Shown piece after piece: positions 21,430 through 48,555 of a stretch of 64,000 nucleotides of DNA (positions are counted from its first letter, which is position 1; each line of letters opens with the position of its first letter). The position numbers and the translations under genes were made by a program. The notes under the pieces are model-generated. The model did not search any database and was not told where the DNA came from. It saw only the letters and a list, made by a program, of their open reading frames with translations. The stretch is taken from assembly GCA_930367205.1 (NCBI GenBank), contig OV884009.1, forward strand, positions 96,369,189 through 96,433,188. Direction: 5' to 3'. This DNA comes from Acanthosoma haemorrhoidale. Its lineage: Eukaryota > Arthropoda > Insecta > Hemiptera > Acanthosomatidae.

Positions 21430-21990
21430 CAAAGTCGTTTAGCAGGGTGAGGGGGGGTGTGTGACCTTGACCGACTGGAGTAGGTAAAACGCAAGATTTG
21501 CCAACGTTGCCACCAATTGGCAACGTCGCAGGGGTGATTGACCATGGGTGATTGAACTACAACGGCTCGTCAGCCATTCTTGACCTAGGCCAAGTTTTAT
21601 TTTCGCTAAGTAGCTCGTTTCATTCATTGGAGTGGTTTGACCTTGGCTGACTTCTGCTCGACTGGCCTATATTTGTTTACTTCAGCGGCCGCGTCATTCT
21701 CGTTTGCTAATGTGTTCTTGACCTAGATCAAGTTATATTTTCGCTAACTAGGTCGTTTCATTCATTGGATTGGTTTGACCCTGTGCCCAAATTGACAACG
21801 TTGCAGGGGGGATTGACCTTGGATGACGTTCGACGACTTGTTTGTTTATGTGTTCTTGACCTAGATCAAGTTATATTTTCGCTAACTAGGTCGTTTTATT
21901 CATTGGAGTGGTTTGACCTTGGATGACGTTGACTGGTCTTACGGCCTATATTTGTTTATGTGTTCTTGACCTAGATCAAGTTTTTTATTT
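21430..21990. repeat. Tandem 110-140 bp repeats bordering the viral block
   Basis: A unit beginning TTCTTGACCTAGATCAAGTT and continuing CGCTAACTAGGTCGTTTCATT recurs near 21,576, 21,711, 21,849 and 21,959. A second module (GGCAACGTCGCAGGGGTGATTGACC) appears at about 21,518 and, diverged, at about 21,795. They sit immediately outside the first viral gene, so they may be terminal or subterminal repeats of the viral element. They have no coding potential. Confidence 0.6.
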
Positions 21991-22189
21991 TCGACTTTAC
22001 GTGAGTTACGTCACGCCTCGCATGTCCCAGGAGCCTGGAGCATTAGCGACTCGAGATGCGAAATGTAAAAAGTTAGTTACCAATTACAGGCAAGATATAA
22101 CGGAGTTAACTTATTTCATAAAGGTATTTAACATAAAAAATCTAAATTCTCTTCCAATACAATTCCCCCTCCTCGTATAACTGTGTGGA

Positions 22190-22280
22190 TATAAAGAGCT
22201 TGGACTTTTGCAATTTTCAAGCATTCAGTATCTGGAGTGTCGAGCAATTTTTCCTAAACGTAAGTCTTTATACTATTTGA
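22190..22280 (+). promoter_or_regulatory. TATA/Inr promoter and leader of the BIR gene
   Basis: TATAAAG (22,190-22,196) lies about 35 bases upstream of an arthropod-type initiator TTCAGT (22,224-22,229). The 78 bases 22,203-22,280 match 27,009-27,086 at all but three positions, including a GTAAGT donor-like site (22,260-22,265). An in-frame TGA at 22,278 precedes the BIR start codon. Confidence 0.6.
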
Positions 22281-22283
22281 TCT

Positions 22284-22616
22284 ATGGGGAAGCGAACAGG
22301 TTGGAGCCTGAGGTATGAGGATGATCGTCTGTCTACGTTTGTTGGATGGTTTTCACCGGCGAGTGCCGTTAAGTTTGCATCAGCAGGATTTTATTATTTG
22401 AAAAAATCAGACCGAACAAGGTGTCCTTTTTGTGGAGTAATATTATATGAATGGTTGGTATATGATGACCCTTTTGTAGATCACAAGAAATGGTCTAAAT
22501 ATTGTCCGTTTATCGATTACTTGGAACAACTAGAGAAGCTACCATTATTAATAATAGATGAAGTTGATAATAAAAAAGAACAGGAAAACACCTGTGGGTG
22601 CTGCCAATATGCGTAA
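22284..22616 (+). CDS. Single-BIR inhibitor-of-apoptosis-like protein of viral type
   Basis: A 110-residue frame from ATG 22,284. Residues about 12-75 form a BIR domain: RLSTFVGW, then SAGFYY, then CPFC followed 16 residues later by DH and 6 residues later by C. This is the exact CX2CX16HX6C zinc pattern, with the conserved Trp and DDPF. BIR proteins bind caspases or IAP antagonists and block cell death; large DNA viruses often capture them. No RING finger follows, and the frame ends in a short Cys-rich tail (CGCCQ). It stands just inside the viral block, next to a promoter shared with the gene at 27,139. Its intact reading frame is unusual here. Confidence 0.82.
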   Translation: MGKRTGWSLRYEDDRLSTFVGWFSPASAVKFASAGFYYLKKSDRTRCPFCGVILYEWLVYDDPFVDHKKWSKYCPFIDYLEQLEKLPLLIIDEVDNKKEQENTCGCCQYA

Positions 22617-22915
22617 GAGGTTTACACGTTTTATTCAACAACTTTCTCATTTAAAAAACCAAATAGTTTTATATGAAATTAAAAAAAACGAGATAAATCA
22701 ACTAGTAAAAAAAATAGAAAAACTTCATCTTTCCCCACCTCTCTGTTAAATCTTTTAGTCTCAACGTTGAAGCCTAGCAAGATGGAGGGACCACGACGAT
22801 TGGAACTAGTGACTGATTACCCCATCACTTGTAGCAAACTAGTCAGAGTCGGTCTTTGTGATTTTGTGCCACTGTCGCTGTCAGCTATTCATATGACAAG
22901 AAAACTACAGTGTAT
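22617..22915 (+). other. Spacer after the BIR gene with a short Lys-rich frame
   Basis: A short open frame (to 22,749) encodes a Lys/Glu-rich, coiled-coil-like segment (NEINQLVKKIEKLH). It is out of frame with the BIR domain and could be a lost C-terminal extension. The following bases contain an open frame that probably supplied the N-terminus of the next ORF before a frameshift. Confidence 0.35.
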
Positions 22916-23392
22916 ATGGATACAGAAGAATGGAAATTCATCGTCGACCAAGTTCCAAGGATGTTGTCTCTTTTGCAAAGCAGACCCCAGAAAGTGGAGG
23001 TCGAAGACCGAGTAGGATGTAAAAATGTAAATTGCATATTTTCCAAGAGAGGGAGGAACAGGATCGTGAAAATTGAACAGGTAATTCTTTGTTTCGCAAT
23101 GTTTAACCAGAGTCCATCAACCCTTCAGCTGAATACACCTTCGGCATGTTTTAACAAAAATGATGTGACAAAGCTTTGTAGAGACGTTAAGAAAATCAAC
23201 GACTCATTGGACTTGATAACCAAGATGGCTGAAGTCTTTAAGAAAAATGAAGAATGTCAACTCATCGAACCTGTGGATTGTGTTCCGATTGATTTCGGCA
23301 TCAATACCAATACCCTTTTTAATAATTTAAATGAACTCGAGAAAATGTGTAATAATACCCACATAAATTGTAATTTGAACTATATTCAATAA
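22916..23392 (+). CDS. Unknown protein in viral block
   Basis: An open frame of about 158 codons with ATG at 22,916. It is rich in Cys, Asn and Lys (for example VGCKNVNCIFSKRGRN), with a predicted helical second half. I do not recognise the family. Coding-like sequence continues upstream in another frame (22,790-22,910), so the true start may lie further left behind a frameshift. It is convergent with the - strand genes beginning at 23,546. Confidence 0.45.
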   Translation: MDTEEWKFIVDQVPRMLSLLQSRPQKVEVEDRVGCKNVNCIFSKRGRNRIVKIEQVILCFAMFNQSPSTLQLNTPSACFNKNDVTKLCRDVKKINDSLDLITKMAEVFKKNEECQLIEPVDCVPIDFGINTNTLFNNLNELEKMCNNTHINCNLNYIQ

Positions 23393-23545
23393 ATAATTGT
23401 TATGTCTATACATTTATTTTTTTATTATTATTGAACCTTTCCCTAAGTAAAAATGAGAATAAAGGTAAATAAAAAAAAAAAATTTTAAATTTATATGGTT
23501 TATTTGAAAATAAAACATGAATAAATTATAGATATAATATTACAA

Positions 23546-23767
23546 TTAATAATTAATATATTCATTGAGGTATGAGAGTCTTCGTTTCTGGATAAATTCC
23601 TCGTCCTCTCGCCATTCCTCAGGTAAGTAGTCCCAGATGTAGTCTAATGTGTAGTCGAAAAGGTACAAAAGTAATGATCGAGGTAAAACTCTCAATTCTT
23701 CAGTAGTTAAAGTTTCGATACCTTCCTCTCCCAAACGACGTATCGCCGACTCCATTCTATCCGTCAT
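23546..23767 (-). CDS. Small acidic unknown protein
   Basis: A 73-residue frame starting with ATG at 23,767. It is acidic, with many aromatic residues in its middle (LFDYTLDYIWDYLPEEW). Its position, last in a - strand series behind capsid-type genes, supports a real viral gene. No family recognised. The flanking DNA is very AT-rich. Confidence 0.45.
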   Translation of the reverse strand: MTDRMESAIRRLGEEGIETLTTEELRVLPRSLLLYLFDYTLDYIWDYLPEEWREDEEFIQKRRLSYLNEYINY

Positions 23768-23833
23768 ACTGATGCAGGTTTTTTTTTTACTAGGAGGTAT
23801 TTATAAATTCTCCTCCTCCTCAAACCACAAACA

Positions 23834-24454
23834 CTAAGGACTATTTTTTTTATGGTACCTGAGAGGGTTGACTAATGATTTGCTGTCAAATACCAGTTCA
23901 CAGTATACACACTTAACTCTATCCTTGACTCCTCGAATAAATCCAGCATATGAAAGCAGATGTTGAGGTGAGCCAATGTTTTTAAATGTTTGCCTTCTTA
24001 TCTCTTCTTTTTTCAAATTTACAGCTTCAGAATTTTTTCCGATCCATGCAGCCAGACGATGAGCTTGATTTAATGAACAAACAAAGGAAGTGTTTAAATG
24101 AAAATGACAAGTCATCTGGTCATTATCTAATTGTTTCAAGTTTGGACAGCCGAAATCATGAAGATCATAGACTGGTTTATCAATGAGTTCTTCTATGAAA
24201 TGACACTTTTCCCCATAATGTGTCAAAGTCTTCCGTGATGGATAGTAAGAAATATTTCATAGCCTCATATGGTACATTACCATAGTTCCATTCCAGTCCG
24301 TGAATATGTTTCTTTACCCAAAGATTTGTTTTCGACTCACCCACTTCTCCTACATCTCGAGATGGTTTGAAAAACGAATGCCACGATGAATCATGGCTGA
24401 TGGAGATTACAGATAGTTCTTTAACGATCAATGAGTTAGAAGCCGAGCGATAAC
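23834..24454 (-). pseudogene. Second BIR-like gene, frameshifted
   Basis: Two - strand frames (24,180-24,454 and 23,834-24,226) overlap at a frameshift near 24,215 and together give a protein of about 200 residues. The last 50 residues resemble a BIR domain: RRQTFKN, LLSYAGFIRG, then VKCVYC and a His 16 residues on. The Trp and the final Cys region are missing or altered, so zinc binding is doubtful. The N-terminal 140 residues are not recognised. The segment begins after a good acceptor (TTGATTTTCAG at about 24,455-24,465), so an upstream exon may be lost. It lies downstream of the hexon-like gene on the same strand. Confidence 0.5.
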
Positions 24455-24562
24455 CTGAAAATCAATGACCGCCGAACGCATTATATGCTTGAGTCAATGT
24501 CTTACGGTGAAGTGATATTTTTGCAGTCGACGTAATCTCTATATATAGATGTATGTGCTGTT

Positions 24563-25777
24563 TCAGTACATTTTACGAACAAGACCTGTGCCCACCTCAT
24601 ATTCTACAATTTTATCGTGGAGAATAAGGCAGTATGCCTTAGTATTTGGCGGAATGTTCTCACTCGCCTGTAGTAATACACGAATATCAATAGTCGTACT
24701 CTTTATCGCATCAGATTGTTTAGAACAATCTATAACGACTATAGGTGCTATGATCTCAAAATCACATCGTGACAGCAGAGGTTGAGAATGTCTATTGCCA
24801 TAATAACTCGTTTGAAATTCTTTATACATTTCGTAGAGGAGAGCCACTTTTTCAAGCTCGAAATCTATATTCAAATCATCATAAGGATATTGCTCGCTAT
24901 TCAGATAGAGTTTCAAAATTTTCAATTTGCAACTATCAAACTGACTGTTAACTTTGCTAGCGTTTCTCATTCGATTTTTCTGGAATGCGATAATAACATA
25001 CCGTGGCTTTTCTAAATTTGTCGATGTTTTTACAGTCCAGTTTTCTTGCTGTGATGCAGTTAAATTAGGATATGCGTAAAGATCCCACGATCTGAATGGA
25101 ATAGAGATGACCTTGTTTTTATCTACCATTTTTAACAACCTCAGCCGTTCTTGATCAGAAACACGAACATGAGGCATTCTCCAAATCACTTTATCTAATT
25201 TTATTACAACATCATCGTCACCCTTTACGCAGTTCAAGTCAGTACTCGATCTGATCAAAACGAGTTCTTGCTTAAGATTAATTAAAATTTTTCGATAGTC
25301 CTCACATATCCCTAAGAGAATATCCAGTGGCAGACACAGACTAAAAAAACCGTTTTTATCTATTGAAAGAGTTTTGTCTGAACCTGGGATTACCCATCCT
25401 GCATTTTCTAGACCTTTGACTTGATTAGGTGAAAATGACGCATGGCCTTTAAGCGTTGTAGTTGTTCCTGGGTTTCTCACTCTATCAACTTCAATGCCAT
25501 TCAATTCATATCTGATCTCATCAAACAAAAACGCAAAAGCGTTATTAGTCAATTTTGAAGTAGCTCCAGGAGTACCATCTTTTTTTTAAATTCGTCCTTC
25601 AAGATAAACATAACTTAATGAAGGAAACGTGTAGACATCTTGTTGATGTATAGGTTTTCTGATTTCGTCAGAGCTGTTAAAGGTGTTCCCCGCATACGGC
25701 TGATGTGAATGATACTGGAATTTCGTAAGGGAATCATCAAATTTTATATCTGATGTAACGCTTAGTATGTTATTCAT
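24563..25777 (-). pseudogene. Hexon-like major capsid protein (left lineage), one nonsense codon
   Basis: One - strand frame of about 404 codons from ATG 25,777, interrupted only by TAA at about 25,586-25,588. Motifs conserved with the right-block copy include CLPLDILLG, LKQELVLI, WRMPHVRVSDQERLRLLK and PFRSWDLY. The C-terminus reads HDKIVEYEVGTGLVRK. Position and partners (penton-like and protease genes just upstream) point to the double-jelly-roll capsid protein of polinton/adintovirus-like elements. I infer the fold from context and family resemblance; no catalytic residue can confirm it. The start overlaps the previous gene by four bases. Confidence 0.62.
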
Positions 25778-25947
25778 TTTTTCTTATTTTGTAACCGAGA
25801 ACCACACTGTTTCAAAAAGTTAGCGTTTGCAGTTGTTAACTGTCTCGTCAATTTAGGATTACTAATTCTTAAAATGGTTTGCTCTCTCCTTTTATAACGA
25901 GCTACACTATTATTCTGCACACCATCCATGGTAAAATCAATCCCCAT
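25774..25947 (-). CDS. Small basic protein between penton and hexon genes
   Basis: An intact 57-residue frame not listed among long ORFs, with ATG at 25,947. It is strongly basic (ARYKRRE, NPKLTRQL, QNKKK), as expected of a DNA-condensing or cement-type minor virion protein. Its start overlaps the penton-like stop by 11 bases and its stop overlaps the hexon-like ATG as ATGA. A diverged counterpart sits at the same place in the right block (42,082), and again at 46,700-46,860. That synteny is the main evidence that it is a real gene. Confidence 0.65.
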   Translation of the reverse strand: MGIDFTMDGVQNNSVARYKRREQTILRISNPKLTRQLTTANANFLKQCGSRLQNKKK

Positions 25948-26644
25948 TTTTCTTCAAATGTATTCGCAATGTAACAGTTTCCCCCCTAAAGTCAATAAGT
26001 TCTCCGTCTTGATCCACTAACCGAACGGTAATATTGTCAACAGTCCTCACGTTAGTAGGAAAGTAAATGACAGGATTCGGGGTTTCTATTATTTTATATC
26101 CTGGTTCTACAGCCGGGAGGAATTGATGTATGCTATGATCCGGATCTCCATTGACGTAAGACCCTGATGCGATGTTACAATGAATCGAAATAGTGTTTAC
26201 AGAAAGAATTTTCACAATGCCATCCGATTCGCTGTACCGATGCACTGGGTTAATGACTTGATTGGGACGATGAAAACCTAACAGTGGACCAATAGAATGG
26301 GGCTTGTCGGGGAAGTTGAAGTAGACCGGCTTCGTTGTTCTAAGTTCAGCCTTTAAAGTATTCTGATTTCCTCGCAGCATAAACCCCTCACCAGGTTCCT
26401 GGTGATCAATTTCTTCGTGAAGAAAAGAATTTAATGCATCGATATCATACGATCCTTCAGGTATCTGGATCGTCAAATTTCCAAAATAAAACTTATCGTT
26501 AACATCCTTTCTTATATTAGGAATAGTATTATATGTGTCAAAAGATAATAACCCAACTGTATAACTTGAGCGTAATTCCAGCGGAGGTGAAAAGTTTGCA
26601 TGAAGAACACTAGAATTTCCTGTAAACGTAACTGTATAGCTCAT
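25937..26644 (-). CDS. Penton-like capsid protein (left lineage), intact frame
   Basis: An intact 235-residue frame starting at ATG 26,644. Conserved with the right-block copy are GLLSFDTYNTIPN, IPEGSYDID, SGSYVNGDPDH, EPGYKIIETPNP and TNVRT. Order protease, penton, small basic, hexon is kept in both blocks, which supports a minor capsid (penton-type, single jelly-roll) role. That role is inferred from order and size. It is remarkably intact for an endogenous relic. Confidence 0.6.
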   Translation of the reverse strand: MSYTVTFTGNSSVLHANFSPPLELRSSYTVGLLSFDTYNTIPNIRKDVNDKFYFGNLTIQIPEGSYDIDALNSFLHEEIDHQEPGEGFMLRGNQNTLKAELRTTKPVYFNFPDKPHSIGPLLGFHRPNQVINPVHRYSESDGIVKILSVNTISIHCNIASGSYVNGDPDHSIHQFLPAVEPGYKIIETPNPVIYFPTNVRTVDNITVRLVDQDGELIDFRGETVTLRIHLKKNGD

Positions 26645-26656
26645 GATTATGAATGA

Positions 26657-26839
26657 TCAAAATTTATGAAAAACGTCAGCTAAATACTTTAAGCAGAGAT
26701 GTCCACAAATCAGAGTATTCCACTTCTGATAACGACGTCTGTTGTAAGTTATTTTTGAACCCTTGAAATAGTCAAGTAGCTGTGGTGGTGATTTCAAATT
26801 TCCAAACGAATCAAAAGCGATAAAGCATTCAAAGTACAA
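26657..26839 (-). pseudogene. Adenain-like cysteine protease, C-terminal remnant (left lineage)
   Basis: The frame retains the acidic-residue box AFDSFGNL and the active-site cysteine box CGHLCLKY of adenovirus-protease-type enzymes, which process capsid proteins. The N-terminal half with the catalytic His is missing; it stops near 26,839 where unrelated sequence leads into the next promoter. The surviving part matches the right-block protease at 40,150-40,482 in the same order relative to the penton-like gene. Confidence 0.72.
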
Positions 26840-27000
26840 AAAACGTTATACGGATAGATAACTATTGGTGAATTGATTAGTCATTAAAAGAAAATTATAG
26901 CAATACCTCTGAATCTAATGCGCCTCCCTTGCGGTTCTCACGGTTTTCGCACGGATGGCTGTCTGTGATGTTAATGTGCACTCAGCTTAAAATGTATCCC

Positions 27001-27138
27001 TCCTCATCGACTTTTGCAATGTTCAATCATTCAGTATCTGGAGTGTCGAGCAACTTTTCCTAAACGTAAGTCTTTATACTATTTGAACTAATCCTAGCAT
27101 AATGATAACTAAATATTGTGATTTGTTAAATATTGCAG
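27001..27138 (+). promoter_or_regulatory. Repeated leader with Inr and an intron
   Basis: 27,009-27,086 repeats the 78-bp BIR-gene leader. TTCAGT at 27,030-27,035 fits an arthropod initiator. A strong donor GTAAGT (27,066-27,071) and the acceptor TATTGCAG ending at 27,138 define a 73-base intron that ends immediately before the ATG at 27,139. Confidence 0.6.
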
Positions 27139-27390
27139 ATGTCTTTAATCAATAAATTAAACAGGCTGACAGTCTATAAAACAATTGGGGAGTTGAAGGA
27201 GGGAACAACATACAGAATATTGGAGTTGTCGATAAAGTCGACGGAATACGGAGAAGCATTACAAGCTATCTTAGAAGGAGAAAGCGGTGAAAGATTTCGT
27301 ACCTTTTTACCAAAAAGGTATCGCGAATGCTTTTCAGACAGAGACATAGAACAATATGATGGTGAGTTTTCATATTTATTTATTTTTTGA
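27139..27390 (+). CDS. Small spliced gene, possibly OB-fold ssDNA-binding-like
   Basis: The frame starts at ATG 27,139 right after a splice acceptor and reads SLINKLNRLTVYKTIGEL, then YRILELSIKS, then FRTFLPKRYRECF. A GTGAGT donor at 27,362-27,367 suggests the true coding exon ends at 27,361 and that the last residues of the open frame are intron. A downstream exon is not found because a solo LTR begins at 27,464. The beta-rich pattern with FLPKRY is reminiscent of small proteins that accompany viral polymerases in insect genomes. The function is a guess. Confidence 0.45.
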   Translation: MSLINKLNRLTVYKTIGELKEGTTYRILELSIKSTEYGEALQAILEGESGERFRTFLPKRYRECFSDRDIEQYDGEFSYLFIF

Positions 27391-27459
27391 AATAATAGCA
27401 TTAATTAAAATTGTTTGTAATAGACAACTAACATAAGCTTTAATTTAGGATCATTAAAG

Positions 27460-28518
27460 ATGTTGTAGCAACCGCTAACTATATATGTAAATTACCCTAC
27501 ACTCTGGTTCATAATGTATTATAATATAATGTAAATCTTGTAAGCTTCTTTGGAATAAATCAGGGTCGCGGCACGTAGTAGGAACAGGCAGACATACGGA
27601 CACCGACAGACGGTAATAAATCATAGAGAGGTCGGAAGTCGTAGACAAGTAACTCAAAGGGTGCGGCAATAAACCTACGCGAATTAGCCACCTGACTGCC
27701 ATAAAACCCGAAAGCAAGGACACTTACCCCTATCATAATAGACCTTGAGTCACTTCCCTTGGTCATAAAAGCATGCTAGGAACCCTTTTGGGACCCATGG
27801 GATAATAACCTTGCTATAGGTGGTCAAATAACCCTAGGGGGTGAGCCCTAGCATGGCCCTATGGCCCTAGCAGCCATATAAAACACACCCTTGTACCCCA
27901 ACGGTCATAAAACTAAAAGGAAGTGACTACCTGTGTATCGTAAAACTTACTCCGGGCAGACAGACCCGGCCTTCCACGAGGGAGGGGGTTATCATATTTA
28001 TATCAGTAAATTTCACTCTTCATCCCACTTTGTCGCTTAGCTTCATAGCTGCATGACTTATCACTTACCCCAGGGCCACCTGGCCCTGGTGGGCTCACTC
28101 TGTTTACTAGTCTCCACAGCCGATTACCTCGCGATATGCCAGGGCCTCGGGGCCCTGGGAGTAAGCCCCCCTCAGCCTTCCGCTAATCGACTCTCACTAT
28201 GCTACACCTATACGACGGCACTTCGCCTCACAGCCTATAGCAGAACCCTGACGAATTGTACTTATTACGCTGCCGATCTCTCGCCCGAACTCTGAAAACT
28301 GGTCTTATTCTTTATGAACCTCTGAACCTCATCCTGAACACAGTGTCTTGTCGGGACACATCCCTATCAATAAATGGAGTCAGATATTAACGCCTACATG
28401 GAACATGGTCCATGTTATTAACTACAGCAATCCGACAATTGTTGACCTCCGACAATTGTTCACCTTTTCCGACAATTGTTCACCTCCGACAATTGTTCAA
28501 CCAATAACCCGACAATGT
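27460..28518 (+). repeat. Solo LTR with ATGT target duplication
   Basis: The LTR runs from TGTAGCAACCGC (27,464) to AACCCGACA (28,514), flanked on both sides by ATGT. It contains a TATAAAA box near 27,875 and AATAAA near 28,368. Four tandem CCGACAATTGTT units (28,437-28,500) lie before its end. The copy at 49,236-49,914 shares both ends. It has no protein-coding capacity and separates the 27,139 gene from the polymerase. Confidence 0.8.
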
Positions 28519-28581
28519 CATACGAGGGGAAGGAGAAAAAATCGTACCAAATTAAGTTTATGTAATTTGTACAATTGAATA

Positions 28582-31000
28582 ATGGCAGAGGGAAAAGGTA
28601 TGAATGTTTTATTATGTTCGAAATGTGGACTATTATTATTAAAATCGAGTGCACATAGATGTAAATGGCAGTTTTATGTATGTACACTCTGTAGTCGTGA
28701 ATTCAAATCCAAATTTAATTATGAACGTCATAAAATCACATGCGAAAAAAAACGTTTCAGTTCCCCTCAGGCATTCGTCGATATTGGTAGTCAGTTATCA
28801 ATGAAAAACTTTCAAACCCCAGCTGGTCCATCTTTGAATCAATCACATTTGCCGTTTAAAAAACGAACGTACTCGGGCATTCCGTATTTATCGGAACCTA
28901 ATATTGCAAATATAGGAATCAGCCCTCCAAAGAAACATCGATTCTATAATGAGGAACAACTAGAAATTTTAACAACGAACGAACAAGGTATTAAAAAGAC
29001 AGCATTTGGTAATACACTCATAGACTTATATATTGAAAATCACGATTTCAACGTTGCAATTCGCTTAAAGCAGTTAGAGCAGAGTTCCCACGCGATGACA
29101 AAATTAAATTAAAAAAGTTCCAGAGTACATAAAGAATTAAAATTGTAGCTTACGCTGATTTTGAATGTTACTTAGAAACAATCGAAGGTCCTTGTCAAAA
29201 TCCTTCAATTTCATGGTCGAAATCCGTGCACAACCATAAAATCTTTTGTGCATCATTAATGGTTAAAGCCGATATTCCTCTATTTGATCTTCAACCTTCT
29301 GTTTATACTGGTGCTAACTGCATGGTGTTCTTTATGGAAGCTCTTCATAAATTGGCAAAAAAGGCTGATGAAATATATTGAAAAGTCCAACCTATGGCTC
29401 AAATGACTGAGCAAGAAATGTCGTATTATGAAAAAACAGATAAGGGCGTTATTTGTCTTAAGACATTATATAACGAAGAAAAAGTACGACATCATGATCA
29501 TGTAACATCCAAATTTATTGGTGCTGCTCATTCCTATTGCAACTTGCAAGCAAAAACGCCAGATTTCATACCAGTGTTTATGCATAACTTACAGGGTTAT
29601 GACTCGCACTTCATCGTTCCTTTTCTAGCCAATCAAGAGGGAGAAGTAACAGTTGTTCCGAGCAATTCGGAAAAATACATCAGTTTCACCAAATCCTTTC
29701 ACGATTGTAAAACTAAAATAAGATTCGTTGATAGCTATACATTTTGAGCTGCCAGCCTTGATACGCTTGTTCAAAACATGAAAGCAGTTTCTGATGATCT
29801 CTCAACCATTTTTCCTCACTTGTACCAGTTAATACCAGAAAAAAATAAAGTTGAATTGCTTACAAAAAAAGGAATTTACCCATATTCTTATATAAATTCG
29901 TTAGAGCGATTAGATGAAACAACTTAACTTCAGAAAATATTTCAGAGACAGACTATCAACATGCTCAAGCCATTTGGAAAAATTTTAATTTAAAAAATTT
30001 AAAGGAATATACCGAAATGTACATTAAAACGGATGTTATTCTTTTATGCGAAATATTTGAAAAATTTCGTAATCTGTGCATGGAGATATATTGCTTAGAT
30101 CCCGCCTATTTTATGTCTTTTCCAGGGTTAAGCTACGAGGCAATGTTAAAAACAACAAATATCGAGCTGGAAATCATTAAAGACGTTGATATGATATTAT
30201 TTATTGAAAAAGGAATTCGAGGAGGCATAACACAAGTAGTCAAGCGCTATGCCAAAGCAAATAATATTTACACAGATGATTACAACCCAAATAAGCTCGT
30301 TAGCCACCTTATTTACGCGGATGTAAATAATTTATATGGATATGCCATGAATAGCTTCCTCCCATATTGTGACTTTAAATGGTTAAATGAAGAATTAGAC
30401 GTGTTAAACGTCCCGGATGAGTCGGAAATCGGGTATATACTTGATGTTGATATAGATTACCCAGATGAATTTACATGATTTTAATTCTCAATTACCCTTA
30501 TTACCTGAAAAATCAAAGCCCCCCAGCAATAAAACTACCGAAAAATTGCTGACAACTCTCACAGCGAAAACCCGTTATATCGTTCATTATGTAAATCTGA
30601 AACAAGCACTAAATCTGGGTATTAAATTAAGAAAAAATCATAGAATTCTAAAATTCAAGCAAAAAAATTGGCTGCTTCCATACATAAATTTAAATACTAA
30701 ACATAGAGCTATGTCGACCAACCCTTTTGAATCTGATTTTTTCAAGCTGATGAACAACTCTTCTTTCGGTAAATTCATGGAAAATGTTAGGAAACGTATA
30801 GACCTAAAATTGTAACAAATAAAAGATCGCTAAACAAACTAGTTAAAAAACCTAATTTCAAAGAGAGAATAATTTTCACAGAAAATGTAGCGTCTGTCCA
30901 GTTAGAAAAGGAAAGAATTGTATTTGATAAGCCCCTTTATGTTGGCTTTAGCATATTGGAACTATCAAAGGTGTTAATGTATAAATTACATTATAACGTA
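28582..31000 (+). pseudogene. Protein-primed family B DNA polymerase relic
   Basis: The first frame (28,582-29,112) carries two Cys/His finger-like pairs (CSKCG, CTLCSREF). Exonuclease motifs follow: ADFE near 29,155, NLQGYDSHF near 29,590 and YIKTDVILL near 30,020. Polymerase motifs are the A box DVNNLYGYAM near 30,320-30,350 and the B box KLMNNSSFGKFMEN near 30,750. Frameshifts occur near 29,090, 29,925 and 30,460, and stops at 29,380 and 29,745. The catalytic C box is absent because a Jockey-B element replaces the sequence at about 31,001. This polymerase type replicates linear genomes with terminal proteins in polintons, adintoviruses and relatives. It is the replication gene of the left block. 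Confidence 0.85.
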
Positions 31001-36797: not shown

Positions 36798-36799
36798 GG

Positions 36800-39730: not shown

Positions 39731-39739
39731 ACATATAAA
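39731..39739 (+). promoter_or_regulatory. TATA box upstream of the minor-protein gene
   Basis: CATATAAAG lies 30-38 bases before the ATG at 39,769, in the short gap between the divergent ATPase and minor-protein genes. Confidence 0.4.
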
Positions 39740-39768
39740 GCCCCGTGGATTTATTTAAGCATAATAGT

Positions 39769-40138: not shown

Positions 40139-40149
40139 CGGTCCTCGAG

Positions 40150-40482
40150 TTGAATTATTACGCTAAAAATGTTTTGAAAATACCATATTTTAGCGGCGTT
40201 TTCATGATTGACTCCCTTCCGGATCGCCAGCCATATATGTATGAATATGCAATCGTCAAATTGGAACCGAGTTCAAAGAAGGGTTCCCATTGGGTATGTT
40301 ATGAAAAAAAGAATGATGTTGTAAATTATTTTGATTCCTTTGGGAACCTGAAGCCTCCTCATCAGCTATTAAGATATATGAGAGGTAATAACATATTCTA
40401 CAACCGAGAGCGTCATCAAAAAGGGCATACACTTTACTGCGGTCATCTTTGTCTACAGTACTTCATGCACAGTTCTAGTTAA
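40150..40482 (+). pseudogene. Adenain-like cysteine protease (right lineage)
   Basis: The open frame contains the catalytic His box GSHWVCY, the acidic box NYFDSFGNL and the nucleophile box CGHLCLQYF, in the order and spacing of the adenovirus protease family. Such enzymes mature capsid precursors. No ATG begins the frame. Open sequence in the same frame extends upstream into the end of the pVI-like gene, so the true start was probably an overlapping one that has been lost. It lies 18 bases before the penton-like gene. Confidence 0.75.
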
Positions 40483-40500
40483 AGGTCCTTCATTTAAATA

Positions 40501-42055
40501 ATGAGTTTCACAGTAAATCTATCTGGCGCTGAAAGCGTCCTTCAAGCAAATTTATTACCTTCCATCGAACTGAACGGGGAATATGCCATAGGTCTTTTAA
40601 CATTCGACACTTACAATACTATTCCCAATATTGTTAAAGATGTGAACGACAAGTTTCATTTTGGCGGTGTTACCATCACAATACCAGAGGGGTCCTACGA
40701 TATCGACGGTGTTGTGGCCACCTCTTTATTATGAATAATTACTCTTTTCGATCGGATCATATCTATGACTGTTTCCATATGTTTAATAAAGATTATGACG
40801 TCAGTCGGAGTGGTGGAGAAGCTGGAGGGGGGAACAGCCACTGGTGGGGATGGCTCCCCACTACGGCTAGCCTGCCTATATAAGAAATATGATGATATGG
40901 AAATCAGAAAGAAACAAACCGGCACCTTGAAAACTTCTCTCTCTCTCTCTCTCTCTCTGCACTGGCGCTTGCTGCTCTACTCAAAACCATGGTCTTCTCA
41001 TTCAACTACATATTCATCTCTCTCTCCTAACCTCGTTATGTTTTAGTCCGGCGTTGTCAGACCCCACACCTTCCTAGTGGGTGGGAATCTCTGCCTTCAT
41101 TTCGCTAAAACTAACACCTCCTTGGGAGAGACCTCTCCCTTGCGGACGATGGTTGCCGTGGCCCTAAAAACTTACCTCGTAACGTCTCCCATGGCAATCC
41201 AGTCTGCATCTCACCGGTTCACACTCGCCTTTGGGATCCGACGATTTTCGCCTACCCTTAGATACCAAGTGTGAATTCGTGGTCATTCCAAGACCAAATA
41301 AACTACCTATAAACCTACCCTGTTATTCTTCTCCTGAACATAGTGCTTTGTCGGGGCACACACCTTCTAAATATCTTATGGAGTCAGATCAAAGTGAACT
41401 ATGCTGCCCACCGACTAGGCCGGCAGTCAGGGTGAAAGACCACAGGTCCGCCCGCCTTATCTCTTTCTGGGCGCTCACCGGACGTTGGCTAAGAGGTTGT
41501 AGCGACCCTAGCCCACGGTGGGCGTCTCCTCCCCACTTTGGGGATACTCAGTTATCTGAGCCCGACAGACGGTATTAATTTATTTTTGCGAGAAGTGATT
41601 GCCCACCATATACCAATAGCCACTTTATCTCTGAGAGGAAATACGAGCACGCTCAAGTTTGAATTGAAAACCAGCGAGAAGGTTTACTTTAATTCCTCCA
41701 AGGACCAACCACATTCTTTAGGACCGGTTTTGGGATTTACAAAAGAAAACACTGTCATAGTGCCTGGAATACGCTTCACGGTATCAGATGATATCGTTAA
41801 AATTATTAAGTTGAACATTGTATTGATACAATGTAATGTAGTGTCTGGCTCATATGTCAACGGGCAGCCGGACCATAATATTCACCAATTCTTTCCCTCT
41901 GTCGAACCTGGGTATAAAATAATAGAAACACCGAATCCTTTCATTTACCTTCCGACCAACGTTAGAACTATAGAGAACAAAACAGTGAATAGTAGATCAA
42001 AACGGTCAACTAGTTAACTTCAGAGGTAAAACAGTTACAGTTAGACTTCACTTTA
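40501..42055 (+). pseudogene. Penton-like capsid gene (right lineage), split by a solo LTR
   Basis: ATG 40,501 opens a frame homologous to the left-block penton-like gene (FDTYNTIPN, IPEGSYDID). At 40,710 it is interrupted by an 858-base solo LTR and resumes at 41,573 with the next conserved blocks (SGSYVNGQPDH, EPGYKIIETPNP, TNVRT). A frameshift near 41,988 disrupts the last 35 codons. Amino-acid identity with the left copy looks roughly 60 percent by eye, so these are distinct lineages. The role is inferred as for the left copy. Confidence 0.6.
40705..41572 (+). repeat. Solo LTR with perfect GACGG target duplication
   Basis: The LTR runs from TGTTGTGGCC (40,710) to GCCCGACA (41,567). GACGG flanks both sides (40,705-40,709 and 41,568-41,572). 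Inside are a TATATAAG box near 40,877, a CT repeat at 40,938-40,958, and a block TGTCGGGGCACAC...TATGGAGTCAG shared with the other LTRs. The perfect duplication and the interrupted penton frame make this the cleanest insertion in the window. Confidence 0.88.
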
Positions 42056-42081
42056 GGAAGACAAAAACAACAACAGCAACG

Positions 42082-42261
42082 ATGGGAATTGATTTTATAA
42101 CACTACCTTACAAGACGAAGATTAACAGTAGCAGTAGTAGAAGACGACAGTAGGACACGATGTTGCATATAAAAGGGCTCTTCTCTCATCTCGTAGAATT
42201 AGGAAGGTCAAAACGTTTAACCAATTGACAGCAGATAACAAGAAGTTTTTAAAACAGTGTA
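42082..42261 (+). pseudogene. Small basic protein gene (right lineage, copy 1)
   Basis: It starts with MGIDF, as does its left-block counterpart, and is followed by basic residues. A stop interrupts it near 42,148, and the conserved end (LTADNKKFLKQC) is in another frame. The sequence between about 42,120 and 42,261 recurs at 46,705-46,851 with about 90 percent identity by eye. The gene is cut by LTR sequence at about 42,262. Confidence 0.55.
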
Positions 42262-42969
42262 TATAAACCACCGGCTATATAAACCACGCGCCCTCAGACA
42301 GAGGGCATAACGAACCGGACCGTTACTTGGAACACTACTCTCTCCTCTCTCACTGCACTGGCGCCTGCTGCTCTACTCAAAACCATGGACTTCTCATTCA
42401 AATACCTCTGATCTCTATCTCCTAACATCGCTATGTTTTAGTCCGGCGTTGTCAGACCCCACACCTTCCTAGTGGGAATCTCTGCCTTCGTTTCGCTAAA
42501 ACTAACACCTCTTTGGGAGAGACCTCTCCCTTGCGGACGATGGTTGCCGTGGCCCTAAAAACTTACCTCGTAAAGTCTCCCATGGCAATTCAGTCTGCAC
42601 CTCACCGGTTCACACTCGCCTTTGGGATCCGACGATTTTCGCCTACCCTTAGATACCGAGTGTGAATTCGTGGTCATTCCAAGACCACATAAACTACCTA
42701 CAAACCTACCCTGTACCTCTTCTCCTGAACATAGTGCTTTGTCGGGGCACACACCTTCTAAAGATCTTATGGAGTGAGATCAAAGCGAATTAAAGCTGCC
42801 CGCCGACTAGGTCGGCAGCTAGGGTGAAAGACCACAGGTCCTTATTCCCCCACATTATCTCTTTCTTGGGCGCTCACCGGACGGCGGCTACGAAGTTGTA
42901 GTGACCCTAGCCCGCGGCGTGCGTCTCATCCCCACCTTGGGGATCCTCAAATGTGATAACTACCGACAA
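42262..42969 (+). repeat. 5'-truncated LTR of the GACGG-LTR family
   Basis: From its TATATAAA box to the ACCGACA end it follows the LTR at 40,710-41,567 closely (shared CACTGCACTGGCGC, TCCGGCGTTGTCAGACCCC, TTGCGGACGATGG). The 5' third is missing, and no target duplication is seen. It lies between the first right-block gene set and a second ATPase fragment, suggesting a recombination joint. Confidence 0.7.
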
Positions 42970-43219
42970 ACCTATTTTAGGGACTTTATTTAGTATCAAT
43001 ATCAAATATTGATATTTAGTTTGATGTTTTTCCAAAGATGTAGACGTTTTAAAATTTTAAACCGTTGGAGTGTAATAAAAGAGCAAGCATAACATTAGAC
43101 TTTCCACATCCGCTAGGACTGCATATAACAGCTCGTAAGGAAATAATTTACCATGTTTTTGGTGGACGGGTTTCGTATCATCCGGCACTGCTAAGACATT
43201 TACAACTGGAAAGCGTTCC
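42970..43219 (-). pseudogene. Packaging ATPase fragment (right lineage, copy 2)
   Basis: This DNA repeats the 37,570-37,826 segment (AACCTATTT..., TTGATATTTAGTTTGATG, AACCGTTGGAGTGTAATAAAAG) with scattered substitutions and several small deletions. It is cut at 43,219, where Jockey-B sequence starts. It proves that the right-lineage gene set is present twice. Confidence 0.72.
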
Positions 43220-43494
43220 GTTACTATTGTTCTCAGGATTGAAAGGATTGGATACGCTTGATGTTCGACTTTTTTGCTGTCCCCCATAGCTCTATTCCGT
43301 TTGTCCAGATTGGTTTAAGTATAACTTTGTAGATTAGTAGTTTTAGTAGAGCGTCGTTCAGATAATGCAATTATAGATGTAGGTTACGAAGATCATGACT
43401 TTAGGAGGAAGTTGTTTCAGAATTTGAGGAGTAAGGAGATCATATCCAGGGAATTATCATATCGGTAAGGTAAGTTTTTCAGAAGGTATTTGAC

Positions 43495-44866
43495 CTAACA
43501 GGGGTAAACAGCTTTTGGTGGAAGTTTGAGAGATATGGGTGAAGTAAGGAAATCTTCAACAGTTGTGCTATGAGTATGGTTTTGATGAGAAAGGTGAGGT
43601 CTGAAAGTATGGGAAAGATGGAGAGTGAATTTTTCATACCTATCCCCATCCGAAGCCGCCCAGGACCCATCATCACGACGGAGTGGGTATGAAACAGGAT
43701 GATACTTTATAATTTTTTTAGTTACATTCAACAAGGAGTTATCCCTAGTAGACAAAGAGAAGAGGTGGAAATTGAAAGAATCGGAGCGGAAGAATGCCAA
43801 TCGCCGCTTTACCAATTTGAAGTACTGATTGTACGAGCGGCGATCAGCAGGATGCCGGGATCTTTGCCACACTGTTCTAGAGCGGCGTTTGGATTTGATT
43901 AGATCTTTGAGATGCTGAGGTAAACGATTATGATTATGGATTTCTGGGTGACGATGGGGTGACGATGCCTCCCAAGCCGACCCCTGGATCAGAGTAGTGA
44001 AGAAATGCACTGCATCATCTAGGTCTTGGGATGTTTTCAGAGGTACTTTGAGGTCTACAGAGTCTGTAAAAATCTGGCGGAAGTGGTCCCAGTCAACTGG
44101 GCCCCTAATAAATGAAGGAGGAGGCAGGTTGTGAATTGGATTTAGGGAAATGGTTAATAATAAGGGGCTATGGTCGGAGGAGAAGTCATCGAGGCGCTTG
44201 AGTGAATAGTTTAGTGTTCCTAAACTATTGTAGAAGAAAGTTAGAAAAGTCAAGAAAATCTGGATTTCGGTTGGGATCTGATGGCCAATAGGAGGCTGTG
44301 TCAGGAGAGATAGTGGAGCAATGTCTCCGTGTGAGTGCAGACAGCAAAGCACGTCCTCGTTTATTTGTGGATCTTGAGCCCCAGTGTTGGTGCTTTGCGT
44401 TAAAGTCCCCACCCACAAGGAAACGATGCCCGATGGAGTTTAGAAAGGAGATGAATTGGGAATTGGGAATGGATTTATTGGGAGGGCAGTACACTGATGC
44501 TAGAGTAAGGGGAAAAGTGAGGGTGGTGATAGACACTGCAATGGATTGAAGGAAATCATGTGCTACCAAAGGAACTATGTGATGGGATATGGAGTTGTGG
44601 ACAATGACAGTGGTACCTGTATGAGCTCTTCCATCTGGTTGATCAGTTCGATAAGTCTGGTACTGTCGAACATTAAATGGTCGTTTACTTGTAAGTCTTG
44701 TTTCAGTAATAAGAGCTACATCGATGTTTTTGTCATGGAGTAGTGCTGTCAGTTCGTTAGTGTGGGTACGAACACCATTCGCATTCCAAATTCCAAAGGA
44801 GAATGGATAAGGAGTCGGAAGGATCCACTTATGGATTTTGTTTAACGGGGATAAGGTAGGAGACAA
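43495..44866 (-). pseudogene. Jockey-B copy 5 ORF2 (endonuclease part)
   Basis: The endonuclease is intact in its NANG (GIWNANGVRTHTNEL), VALITETRL and GGDFNAKHQHWGS motifs. A frameshift near 44,230 moves it into a second frame (SSDHSPLLLTISL, 43,495-44,418). The RT begins but its catalytic centre is absent. It has the segments that copies 1 and 2 lack at the ORF2 start, so it represents the less damaged form of the family. Confidence 0.85.
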
Positions 44867-46163
44867 GATTTGTAAGAAGGGAAATGAGAGGGGTAATTAG
44901 GATTCTGAACTCTGTAAGGAATGAGGTTAAAAGGCTGGTGAGATCTGAAGAGCTTGAAGGTGGCGGGATATGCGAGATGTGTGGTTGAATATGGGATTGA
45001 GTTTGCCGGTGGCTGGGATGAGCGGAGTGCTGAGAAAGAAGAACTTGCGGAGGAGGAGTGGGCAATGCCTGTGACTGCTCTCTGTTCTGAACTGCGTCAG
45101 CAAAAGAGACTGAAGGCCTCAAACTTCTGGCGGGGGTGCTTCTTGGGCTACCTGTGGCTGGCGTTTCTTCTTCTGGACGACGACGTGGTTCACTTCTGGA
45201 CTTCAGAATTCTATAAGCCTCACAGCGTTTACAGTTTGCCGGGTGGCCTTGCTGACAGAGCAAGCATACAGCAGGTGATTTTAGGGGCTTCTTCCACAAT
45301 TCACTTTTGTGCTGCCCACTGCACTTTACACACGGAGGGTGGTAGCAGTATGATTTTGTGTGCCCATATGCCTGGCAATTATGGCATTGGACGATGTCTC
45401 GTTTCGGGCTAGGCTTTTCGACCTGTACTCTTGTGTAGTATAAGTGGGTAAGCTCGTAGATTTTCTCTACTCCAGCTGTTGGCTCTAGATCCACAACGAA
45501 TAAGGGCAGTGGTGTCTTGATACTTGCATCATTTTCTTGTCTTTCCTCACGGAGGACATTCGTAATTTGGCGAACCTTGTATCCTAAACTTATCAGCTTC
45601 TTTTCTATCTCGTCCGCTGGTGTTGTAGGATGCAGGTTTCTAATCACAACCCGCAGCGATCTTTCTTGCTTTAGTTGGTAGGTATGAAAATCAGCCTTGG
45701 TTTCTTCTAGGTATTTTATAATTCCTCGGTATGAGTCAGGAGTGTCCGGAGAAACTTTTGTATCCCGAGATTGATTGAGGCAAGTATATTTGCCTGTACC
45801 TACAATTTTGCTTAATTGAGTACATAGTAATTTGAAATTACTAATGTTGCGAACGAATATCGCTGGTGGCGTGGGCTTTGTGGGTGTTGTTGTAGAGTCC
45901 ATGTCCTCTACCTCAATATTTTTCAACACCTCGTAACTATTGGGTGTGAACAAGGGAGACTCATGAGTTATTGTAGTTTGTTTAGATGTGCTGGGTTGTG
46001 ATGGTATCTCTTCCATAGAGCTGCTGGGTGCTGAAGAATTTACTGGGATATTTCGATTAGATCGCCGCGGCTTACGTTTGACTGGTGACATAGTGGGCGT
46101 AGGTCCCAATGATCTTGAGCGTTTTTTCTTATTTTCTGATATAACCTGTTGATAGAAACGCAT
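44829..46163 (-). CDS. Jockey-B copy 5 ORF1, full-length frame
   Basis: A 444-residue open frame from ATG 46,163. The N-terminus is basic (NKKKRSRSLGPTPTM), and the middle domain runs from PPAIFVRNISNFKLLC to RVVIRNLHPTTP. The first knuckle is intact (CHNCQAYGHTKSYC). The second has lost its last Cys to Trp, and the third has changed spacing. A Pro/Ser-rich tail with LLTSFLTEFRILITPLI ends the protein. This tail is the part missing in copies 1 and 2. RNA chaperone/packaging role as for other Jockey ORF1 proteins. Confidence 0.87.
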   Translation of the reverse strand: MRFYQQVISENKKKRSRSLGPTPTMSPVKRKPRRSNRNIPVNSSAPSSSMEEIPSQPSTSKQTTITHESPLFTPNSYEVLKNIEVEDMDSTTTPTKPTPPAIFVRNISNFKLLCTQLSKIVGTGKYTCLNQSRDTKVSPDTPDSYRGIIKYLEETKADFHTYQLKQERSLRVVIRNLHPTTPADEIEKKLISLGYKVRQITNVLREERQENDASIKTPLPLFVVDLEPTAGVEKIYELTHLYYTRVQVEKPSPKRDIVQCHNCQAYGHTKSYCYHPPCVKCSGQHKSELWKKPLKSPAVCLLCQQGHPANCKRCEAYRILKSRSEPRRRPEEETPATGSPRSTPARSLRPSVSFADAVQNREQSQALPTPPPQVLLSQHSAHPSHRQTQSHIQPHISHIPPPSSSSDLTSLLTSFLTEFRILITPLISLLTNLVSYLIPVKQNP

Positions 46164-46590
46164 GTTTCATATTCAGCGGCACTTTTCAGAATAGTAAATA
46201 ATTTTCAATTGAATAAAATAATTCAAGATAGTGTAGCCTCGAACGCAGGTATTTGTGCTAAGAGCTTGCGACATTGCAAGGGGCCTGAATAGAGTGTACT
46301 GAGGGCCATCTGGACTTCCCACTCCTATCCCCACTCTCACCATAGCTACTACCGTCGCAATATGGCCGCCCTCTGTATGAATTGTGAGATGAAAAAGTTA
46401 CGTTGGCAGTAATGCCCACTGTTCCTCTTTCCACTCACCTGTACACCTGACAGTCCACCGCGAACGGTTCACCCAAGGGTCGGTTGGAACAGTTTTACGA
46501 ACTAGGCACTTCCTACGAATGGTAACAAAAAACAGTTTGTCGCAGAGCGATATGAAAACGACTTCTATAGTTAGCGCAGGCGCAGTACTC

Positions 46591-46860
46591 GTTGAAATTA
46601 TTAAGGGTATATCGTTACAATGTAATGTAGCGTCTGGCTCATATTTCAACGGGCAGCGGGACCACATTATTTACCAATTCTTTTTTTTTTTTTTTTTCAC
46701 CAAGACGACGATTAACAGGAGCAATAGTAGAAGACGATAGTAGGACACGATGCTGCTTATAAAAAGGCTCGTCTCAGGCCTCGTAAAATTAGTAAGGTCA
46801 AGACGTTTAACCGGTTGACAGCAGATAACAAGAAGTTTTTAAAACAGTGTGGATTTATGT
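46591..46860 (+). pseudogene. Second penton C-terminus and small basic gene (right lineage, copy 2)
   Basis: The frame resumes with CNVASGSYFNGQRDH, matching the penton-like gene at 41,830-41,890. After a run of about 18 T (from 46,681) it continues in small-basic-gene sequence (46,700-46,860). About 190 bases present in copy 1 are missing at the T-run. The copy then leads into the hexon-like relic. Confidence 0.65.
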
Positions 46861-47385
46861 TAAAATATGGGAAATACACGTAGTGGTATGTTCCCCGTTC
46901 AGTTCGATGGGCGTAGTTTTCACTGTATGTTTACCCTTGGACATTTTGCTCGGATTCAGCGATAATTATAGAAAGATTTTAATTGATCTTAAGCAGGAAC
47001 TTGTTCTAATAAAATCTAGTAGTGATCTAAATTCCATTTACCCGATGAGTGCTACAGTCGATGCCCAGATCAAATTAGAGAACGTAGTTTGGAGAGTACC
47101 TCGCGTAAGAGTTGGTGATGAGCAGAGACTACGCCTGCTGAAAATGTTGCACAAAAACGTCACAGCAGCGGTTCCGTTCAGGTCGTGGGATCTCTACGAG
47201 TACCCTTCCTTACCCTCAGCGAGTGCTTGACAAATTTAGAAAAACCACCATTTGTTATAGCCGATTTTCTCCGCTTCAGTTTGAACTTCCGTAAACTTCC
47301 AACACTAATGCATACTGCCTCACTCTTCACGGCAGGACAGTAGAATATGAAATGGCTACCGGACTGGTACGAAAATTGATCTAAC
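46861..47385 (+). pseudogene. Hexon-like capsid protein relic (right lineage)
   Basis: The frame 46,917-47,230 carries FTVCLPLDILLG, LKQELVLIKSS, WRVPRVRVGDEQRLRLLK and PFRSWDLYEYP, co-linear with the left-block gene. The last residues (TVEYEMATGLVRK) reappear after a large internal deletion at about 47,235-47,330. The N-terminal 100 or so codons are missing. Differences from the left copy are spread along the protein, so it is a separate lineage. Its own start is lost. Confidence 0.62.
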
Positions 47386-48555
47386 TTCTCCTGTGTTCAC
47401 CATAATATAATATAAGACCACAAGATATGAAGAAATATTTTGTTATATTATAACCTGCACCTTGTTTATTTATTTTTTTAAATAAATGATACTACAACAT
47501 GACTTTTTTTATTTACCTTAATAAGGAGGAGGAAAAAAATAAAAACAACTTTTTTCTTTAATTTCATTTATTGTTTATACATGATTAATTACATTATTTG
47601 TATTCAAACTAAAACAATCTAATGCTACATTTTCTACATTAAGTAAAAAAACAATCTGAGGGATTCACATGTTGATTATAAATATGCTAACCCGAGTCCC
47701 TCCAAAGCACTTTATTCAACAAACTCAGAGAAATATTAATTTTCTCAATTAAAGACACAAATTTAACACTTTCCATCTTGCTGAAACAGATAAAAGGAGA
47801 TGAAATTATTATATGGGGTGGTGATGGATCATTGACGAGGTTAACGAACCAAGGATATGCGGTTTCGAGTCTAATTACTTTTTTTCTACCGCGTGCGGAA
47901 AATAGGCAAACAATGGTTTTAGATTTTACTATATCATCCGACTGCTGCTCACCCTTCTTTTTTCAGTTCTGTAGTTGAGAATCCTGTCACTGGCACCCGT
48001 AAGAACCTGCCATTCTTCACTGCCTATGTTAAGGTAATTCTTCTTTTTCTTATTTTCCGCGAGACTCGCAGCAGGTCAGTGATGAAATGAAACAAATCCC
48101 CAGAAGGCGATAACCTTGGAGGGGTGTTGTAGAGGACAATTACAGCTACGACGTTATGATGGGCTTGGGAGGTTCACCTGCTCCTGTAGGTCAGGAATAA
48201 ACACGTAATCCCAAGTTCCACTAAACACCTGCAGGAGACCTCAGATAAAAAAACAATCACACCCTCAAGTAGAGCTACAGAGGCAGGTCGACATCCTCGA
48301 ACGAGGCAGGGGATACTCACCGCTCACCAAAGGTCAATGACCCACATGACGTCAACTACCCAAATGTAAACAAACATTAATCACGAGGTCGACGACCAAA
48401 ACAAACAGTGTTGCCATGCCGTGCACCATGTTGCCACATCGTGCACTTAGCCACATCCAACACCTCAAGGTCACCCCCCCTGTCCTTCCCCTCGCCTGCG
48501 AACTACTCTGCACACTTGACCTACGGCACAATCCGGGATTTATAACTACTCAGGA
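47386..48555. other. Right flank of the viral block, little recognised
   Basis: AT-rich to 47,780, with a - strand segment (47,640-47,780) of coding character but with stops. A + strand frame (47,778-47,978) followed by ENPVTGTRKNLPFFTAYV in another frame near 47,980-48,030 looks like decayed protein-coding DNA of unknown kind. From 48,290 to 48,540 the sequence is rich in GGTCAATGACC/GTTGCCA-like words resembling the reversed left-border repeats. Confidence 0.35.

Follow-up and report, generated by a model that had tools for sequence, protein, structure and literature searches.

Polintons (Mavericks) are DNA viruses of animals that were once classified as Adintoviridae and are now placed in the Eupolintoviridae. 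The copies in the host genome studied here, probably that of an arthropod, resemble Eupolintoviridae in encoding DNA polymerase B (PolB), an rve integrase, a double jelly-roll hexon, a single jelly-roll penton, a putative adenain-type protease, a putative P-loop ATPase and a pVI-like protein, and, in the one copy tested, in having terminal inverted repeats (TIRs) with a 6-bp target duplication. They differ from Eupolintoviridae in having a pair of BIR genes, a pVI-like protein with a PLA2-like domain and, at the N terminus of PolB, a weak match to a C2H2 finger; the available part of PMC8905726 describes no polinton-encoded IAP/BIR genes. The adintoviruses treated in the excerpt of PMC11071296 at hand have an N-terminal OTU domain in PolB and an integrase chromodomain, neither of which was detected here. 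According to the accessible portion of PMC8363768, Drosophila-associated adintoviruses 1–3 measure 13.3–14.6 kb and adintovirus 1 encodes PolB, integrase, capsid, protease and FtsK, a size and a gene set that the copies here appear to share. An adintovirus 2 protein matches the penton by fold, at 11% identity. The mavirus and Sputnik virophages show ~8–12% sequence identity in these alignments, and, unlike them, the elements here have BIR genes and an animal-type host.

Two polinton relics in opposite orientation

Within the window, the whole 64,000-nucleotide stretch analysed, pieces of penton, protease, hexon, a small ORF and gene X each occur twice, in two collinear and mutually inverted sets (Table 1). 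We read the stretch, with a probability of about 0.92, as the debris of two separate, related polintons in a genome that also has many better-preserved and partly near-identical copies. Element A (21372–31000) is an internally deleted copy; element B (37073–48075) lies in the opposite orientation, belongs to a different lineage, and is partly duplicated and shredded by retrotransposons. B is probably the older of the two.

The preliminary description had recognized the fossil of a polinton- or adintovirus-like DNA virus in the host genome, which the hexon, penton, PolB and BIR genes bear out; its start at 21430 has to be moved to about 21372, where the remnant of the left TIR begins. Neither element has a readable target duplication in the window, the outer end of A being cut by a LINE and the ends of B not found; the right side gave no clear match to the TIR. 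An 82-bp repeat (22203–22284/27009–27090) was rejected as a terminal repeat; its second copy falls in sequence upstream of the small ORF, a region also present in L038–L040.

Table 1 Features of elements A and B and of the retroelements in the window (L numbers, copies elsewhere in the genome; nt, nucleotide and aa, amino acid identity)
Feature	Position	Strand	Basis or remark
A: TIR remnant, tandem units 138 bp apart	21372–22094	+	outer end cut off by presumed Jockey-type LINE; 76–83% to end of C4:47.29 Mb copy (L044), 85–97% in patches to L009 TIR
A: BIR gene 1, open 110 codons	22284–22616	+	PF00653 E 1.9e-16 on 22281–22616 (+); 91% aa to L009/L011 counterpart; only 2 protein-database relatives, 82% and 79%
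A: conserved gene X, broken, two frames	22782–23392	+	97% and 86% aa to 198-aa L011 gene
A: small ORF, 84 codons	23546–23800	-	70% aa to L009, 96% to L044
A: BIR gene 2, broken, two frames	23804–24461	-	91% and 79% aa to open 230-aa L011 gene; PF00653 E 4.2e-5 on piece 23834–24256 (-)
A: hexon	24563–25777	-	PF21738 E 3.3e-116; stop; fold; one-frame match 25777–24566 to open relatives
A: small basic ORF, 59 codons	25774–25953	-	93% aa to L010
A: penton, open 235 codons	25940–26644	-	447 relatives, best 92%; mavirus penton fold
A: putative adenain-type protease, C-terminal part, cut at deletion junction	26660–26815	-	90% aa to L010
A: fibre-like gene, 34 bp, far side of internal deletion	26816–26849	+	97% to L010, 100% to L037
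A: small conserved ORF, 86 codons	27130–27390	+	94% aa to L043, 68% to L038–L040, 47% to L010
A: ~1.05 kb insertion, absent from L043	27464–28514		partly repeated at 49282–49446
A: PolB, broken, several frames	28579–31000	+	PF03175; matches to 1225-aa L010 PolB
LINE, presumably Jockey type, later insertion, limits approximate	31363–35308	+	repeated in window; gag- and RT-like ORFs
Retroelement fragment with integrase, presumably Gypsy type, non-viral, limits approximate	35500–36790	+	PF17921 and PF00665 on 35700–36125
B: putative packaging-ATPase gene, broken, and start of next gene	37073–37856	-	71% nt to L037; 40–49% aa to L012 ATPase
LINE fragment inside B, presumably Jockey type	38083–39544	+	93% to 33845–35308
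B: pVI-like minor core protein, C-terminal part	39814–40135	+	71–75% aa to L012 and L010 genes, in pieces
B: putative adenain-type protease piece	40096–40482	+	68% aa to A over 44 residues; 60% to L010
B: penton, broken, insertion at ~40735–41540	40498–42060	+	67%, 61% and 58% aa to A penton, three pieces
B: small basic ORF, copy 1	42111–42260	+	89% nt to 46701–46850
B: second, duplicated ATPase fragment	42968–43221	-	88% nt to 37564–37829
LINE inside B, presumably Jockey type	43348–46170	-	ORF list; in-window repeat comparison
B: duplicated penton fragment	46573–46683	+	46589–46683 82% nt to 41794–41894; 51% aa to A penton over 35 residues
B: small basic ORF, copy 2	46701–46865	+	comparison with A; in-window repeat
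B: hexon pieces	46919–47378	+	60% and 69% aa to A
B: gene X piece	47690–48075	-	32% aa to A gene X over 77 columns, E 9e-11; 38% to L002–L004; part above 47962 set by eye from ORF list

Between A and B, pN was 0.285 and pS 0.760 over 571 codons, giving a pN/pS of 0.37 (bootstrap 0.33–0.43), and a joint A+B clade was rejected for the hexon (p = 0.009) and borderline for the penton (p = 0.0497). The preliminary description had seen one single virus genome, of a possibly undescribed, integrase-less group with duplicated capsid genes. We give that reading very little credence: a remnant of the family integrase is indeed absent between 21 and 49 kb, and the part of PMC11071296 at hand reports some adintoviruses with duplicate penton or hexon ORFs, yet the two sets here are collinear and inverted, their synonymous sites are near-saturated, the hexons do not form a joint clade and, at the family level, relatives in the same genome carry an integrase. 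A single insertion, copied as an inverted duplicate once inside the host genome, would explain the same genes in mirror order, and an inverted hexon pair does exist elsewhere (C2:42.904–42.908 Mb). Such an origin is nevertheless highly improbable, as a decaying duplicate should give pN close to pS rather than the values seen between A and B. The duplicates within B diverge little and without a synonymous excess, on short pieces (pN 0.106 and pS 0.156 over 40 codons; 0.177 and 0.078 over 30 codons), and A joins other sequences before it joins B.

Gene identities and the missing integrase

The penton-like and hexon-like capsid genes of the preliminary description were confirmed by both families and folds, the hexon having a double and the penton a single jelly-roll as in polintons; in B, the hexon piece 46829–47230 (+) matches PF21738 with an E value of 5.4e-24. 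A hexon of ~400 codons, previously called small, is of the usual size, with 118 of the 120 listed relatives measuring 396–421 aa. Scans of IMG/VR with the hexon gave no relatives, nor did a search of phage records with its relative P0001. The BIR genes are likewise present as described. They do not mark an undescribed subgroup, since BIR genes occupy the corresponding position in the left ends L009, L011, L045 and L046; the first is absent from copy L044.

Other assignments held in part, mainly through the better-preserved relatives. For the proposed adenain-like proteases, the pieces 26660–26845 (-) and 40096–40482 (+) had no Pfam match, and the L010 gene has an HW / FDSFG / CG..C pattern, which we take to be the adenain-type signature. 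The pVI-like protein matched Adeno_PX weakly in the window (0.0065) and better in L012 (E 5.5e-5, just below the curated cut-off). The A32-like packaging ATPase was tentatively identified through the 232-aa L012 gene, which has Walker A- and B-like motifs (GPSGCGKT and IFIFDD), the window pieces 37160–37769 (-) having no Pfam match; against NCBIfam the L012 protein gave only 0.013, to an anti-phage protein, and against PDB weak matches, the best (E 0.002) to a P-loop resistance protein. A candidate ATPase at L010:2807–3508 was rejected, being the C-terminal part of a 345-aa gene (46%). Rfam and tRNA scans of the window returned nothing, PHROGs gave weak matches only, and PDB sequence searches gave none, or weak or chance matches.

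A family B polymerase is present: PF03175 matches the window pieces 29918–30478 (+, E 1.1e-8) and 30456–30815 (+, E 4.6e-9), 29382–29744 at only 0.004, and the 1225-aa L010 gene at E 7.2e-33. Protein priming, also claimed earlier, is putative; L010 PolB has no Pfam hit for TP or OTU domains and lacks a simple OTU motif. Most of the N-terminal region is gone from the window copy, as are ~830 bp at 29053 and the C-terminal end with motif C. Assigning the PolB at 28.6–31.0 kb to B, suggested by the opposite orientation of PolB in L010 and by a middle piece only 58% alike, was rejected because L043, at 96–98% nt, places it in A; over 28515–29343 A and L043 are 97.6–97.8% identical.

The earlier statement that no viral integrase is present holds locally: tblastn searches of 21–49 kb with two integrases of the family turned up no remnant in A or B, where retroelements fill the space. 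The integrase piece at 35700–36125 (+; rve E 5.9e-8, Integrase_H2C2 E 3.9e-6), from what we take to be a Gypsy-type retroelement, was rejected as viral because it carries the H2C2 domain and the two family integrases have no match there. Relatives in the same genome do carry the gene (rve E 6.8e-17 in L010 and 7.3e-15 in L012). Among nine stretches taken on the penton/PolB side of a hexon (L010, L012 and L037–L043), six contain a whole or partial integrase gene (L010, L012, L037, L041, L042 and L043); none was found in L038–L040, whose 5.1-kb stretches end inside PolB. Pfam's chromodomain had no match in the two integrases scanned. Because better-preserved siblings have the integrase, its absence from the window is damage, not biology, and the locus is a further example of a known element type, not of an unknown group of viruses. 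The three reasons given for a possibly undescribed subgroup all fail to support it: the integrase is absent only locally, the hexon size is usual and BIR genes are present in relatives.

Copies elsewhere and the probable spread of a deleted form

Hexon searches of the host genome gave 126 scored matches from 460 candidates, and by our own count from the match table 48 of the 126 are open, with at least 392 codons and no stops. Compared with 15 other loci (two of which are the same copy), the A hexon has a pN/pS of 0.14–0.46. Three pairs among four copies (C4, C5, C6 and C6) are 99.67–99.98% identical over 3954 bp. The copy at C4:30.29 Mb spans 13,296 bp, with a 537-bp TIR starting AGTAGTAC and the target duplication GTTAAA on both sides; in A, only a TIR remnant is left. 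A and B themselves would have been inserted by such a family integrase; the elements may have been packaged into particles, and their BIR proteins may block apoptosis.

What element A kept is a remnant of the terminal repeat, both BIR genes, the hexon, the penton and some of PolB; the protease start, pVI and the ATPase are lost, and so is the fibre gene except for a short piece. The copy at C4:47.29 Mb (L043), which lies on another chromosome-size contig, has the same deletion junction (26815/26816); the defective form was therefore multiplied before it decayed. Separate losses by decay in each copy, with no mobilization of a deleted form, are unlikely: other deletions do exist (L037 retains the ATPase, and the parts of neighbouring genes, that are missing from L010), and the C4:47.29 Mb copy lost further parts of its own, but it aligns with A unbroken across the junction, in one 864-column match at 96.4%. 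Duplication of host DNA could also have produced the shared deletion. Most likely, the deleted form would have been multiplied in trans, with the integrase and other proteins of better-preserved relatives. More tentatively, this host may now harbour a spreading polinton lineage, complete and either infectious or transposing, that is equipped with two BIR (IAP-like) genes and a core protein bearing a phospholipase A2 and that takes along defective deletion derivatives such as A, which use its proteins in trans. Capsid-gene cassettes would be shuffled between co-resident lineages, and copies would accumulate on a third of a single chromosome; this broader picture is possible, though doubtful.

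A fossil read alone can mislead, as the absent integrase, a result of damage, illustrates. This host genome, which has open hexon genes by the dozen, a number of sublineages and, in part, near-identical copies, is suited to asking whether polintons are still mobile, whether defective forms are propagated in trans and what role their apoptosis-inhibitor-like genes play.

Divergence of the two polinton relics

The preliminary description took this stretch for a single virus. We find two elements instead, A and B: the penton, protease, hexon, small ORF and X (a conserved gene next to the first BIR gene, BIR1) of the left half recur in the right half, collinear and inverted, and a joint A+B clade was rejected for the hexon (AU P = 0.009; 26 rows, 106 columns); for the penton the test was borderline (P = 0.0497; 25 rows, 139 columns). 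Between A and B, pN was 0.285 and pS 0.760 (pN/pS 0.37, bootstrap 0.33–0.43), over 571 codons in which the A small ORF is counted twice, against each B copy, and a short duplicated penton fragment is left out. The contrast was weaker in the X (pN 0.437, pS 0.788) and small-ORF rows (pN 0.37–0.40, pS 0.44–0.55) than in most penton, protease and hexon rows. The pN/pS ratio over these codons and the joint-clade tests argue that A and B split as working lineages, with decay coming later.

Features of the window and state of the genes of element A
Feature	Coordinates	State or setting
Window	C6:96369189-96433188	genome assembly 865.6 Mb, 72 contigs
Element A	21372-31000	
Element B	37073-48075	opposite orientation to A
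A hexon		broken, one stop
A X		broken, frame breaks
A BIR2 (second BIR gene)		broken, frame breaks
A PolB		several breaks, ~830 bp missing, end missing
A protease		start missing
A BIR1, small ORFs, penton		open

At 22284–26815, A is 86–92% identical to family copies elsewhere in the genome at the nucleotide level. The closest among those sampled, at C4:47.29 Mb (L021, L043, L044), is 95–98% identical in the gene part and 76–83% in the terminal inverted repeat (TIR), and shares with A a junction between the cut protease and 34 bp of the fibre gene. Compared with copies L005 and L010, A is 95–98% alike in penton, protease and hexon N terminus and 84–87% in most of the hexon body; synonymous differences from L010 are 0.073 in the penton and 0.369 in the hexon. 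A is a mosaic. Just upstream of BIR1 lies an 82-bp segment (22203–22284) that recurs, 95% identical and in the same orientation, upstream of the small ORF preceding PolB (27009–27090); it is perhaps a common promoter of early genes.

The viral parts of B are 63–76% identical to sampled copies among the matches listed; an 86% match to L012 falls within an inserted repeat. The loci sampled yielded no close relative of B; most of them were drawn from the stronger hexon matches, and older copies may be underrepresented as a result. Neither a BIR gene nor a terminal repeat was found in B. Its ATPase, penton and small-ORF pieces are repeated internally (82–89% nucleotide identity). Synonymous change shows no clear excess in the penton and small-ORF pieces (30 and 40 codons), a pattern that duplication after insertion would produce.

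LINEs, Gypsy-type elements and further retroelement fragments crowd the window; we take the types to be Jockey (LINEs) and Gypsy. Coding stretches at 57462–60630, presumably Gypsy-like, are present as duplicates, the longer matches 76% alike.

Copies in the host genome

With the hexon profile PF21738, 126 of 460 candidates from the genome scored, as against none in 14 control genomes in the same search. By our count from the match table, 48 of the 126 have a stop-free open frame of at least 392 codons. Three pairs among L005 (contig C4), L006 (C5), L007 and L008 (both C6) are 99.67–99.98% identical over 3954 bp. Contig C6, 15% of the length of the six large contigs, carries 27 of their 71 hexon matches (binomial P = 2.7e-6). 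Of these 27, 19 fall within the final 33 Mb of C6 (P = 1.5e-6, with the cut-off set after the data were seen). Small contigs make up 2.6% of the assembly, hold 55 of the 126 matches and are perhaps redundant haplotypes. L013 (C2:42.9005–42.9104 Mb) belongs to a sublineage at 48% identity whose hexons have 417 codons; it holds hexon and BIR2-like genes as an inverted pair, the hexon ORFs ~1.2 kb apart.

Gene order and ends of the family

The family order, a composite from stretches of different copies, runs TIR, BIR1, X, small ORF, BIR2, hexon (L009, L011); small, penton, protease, pVI (L010); and ATPase, a 345–379-aa gene, a fibre-like gene and integrase (L037, L041). PolB and a small ORF occupy the opposite end (L010). 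The integrases match rve (L010, 6.8e-17; L012, 7.3e-15) and the L010 PolB matches PF03175 (7.2e-33). The pVI-like core protein (L012:7632–8456) has a phospholipase-A2-like domain (PF08398, residues 23–80, 1.2e-12), and a region homologous to this part was also matched in L037–L041. L038–L040 deviate, with small ORF and ATPase adjoining PolB and no integrase within the stretch. The PolB-bearing block is in opposite orientation between sublineages (L010, L037, L038–L040). L010 has lost its ATPase, yet its copy retains TIRs and target duplication (TSD). The fibre-like genes (L010:3546–3983; L012:5224–5745) match the phage T7 tail-fibre N-terminal model (PF03906; 3.6e-12, 1.1e-7).

The traits first read as signs of a possibly undescribed subgroup did not hold up as such. 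The missing integrase is a local loss, with a Jockey LINE and a Gypsy fragment occupying the PolB–ATPase gap; the supposedly small hexon has the usual length, 396–421 aa in 118 of the 120 relatives listed (named sources Rhodnius, Agrilus, Macrosteles, three ants and one bee, which makes an arthropod host likely); and BIR genes are carried by L009, L011, L045 and L046 among the left ends sampled. L044 lacks BIR1 and has a broken BIR2, and BIR2-like matches reach only 27–29% in L013 and L048 and 35–43% in L047. One paper mentions anti-apoptotic homologs for mammal-associated adintoviruses (PMC11071296), another describes a polinton gene kit like that of the family copies (PMC11071308), and a third gives Adintoviridae as renamed Eupolintoviridae (PMC12451622).

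One copy is 13,296 bp long, with a 537-bp TIR, ends AGTAGTAC/GTACTACT and the TSD GTTAAA. Polintons are marked by a 6-bp target duplication and AG ends. The gene kit of this family and the TIR, ends and 6-bp TSD of this copy are marks of polintons.
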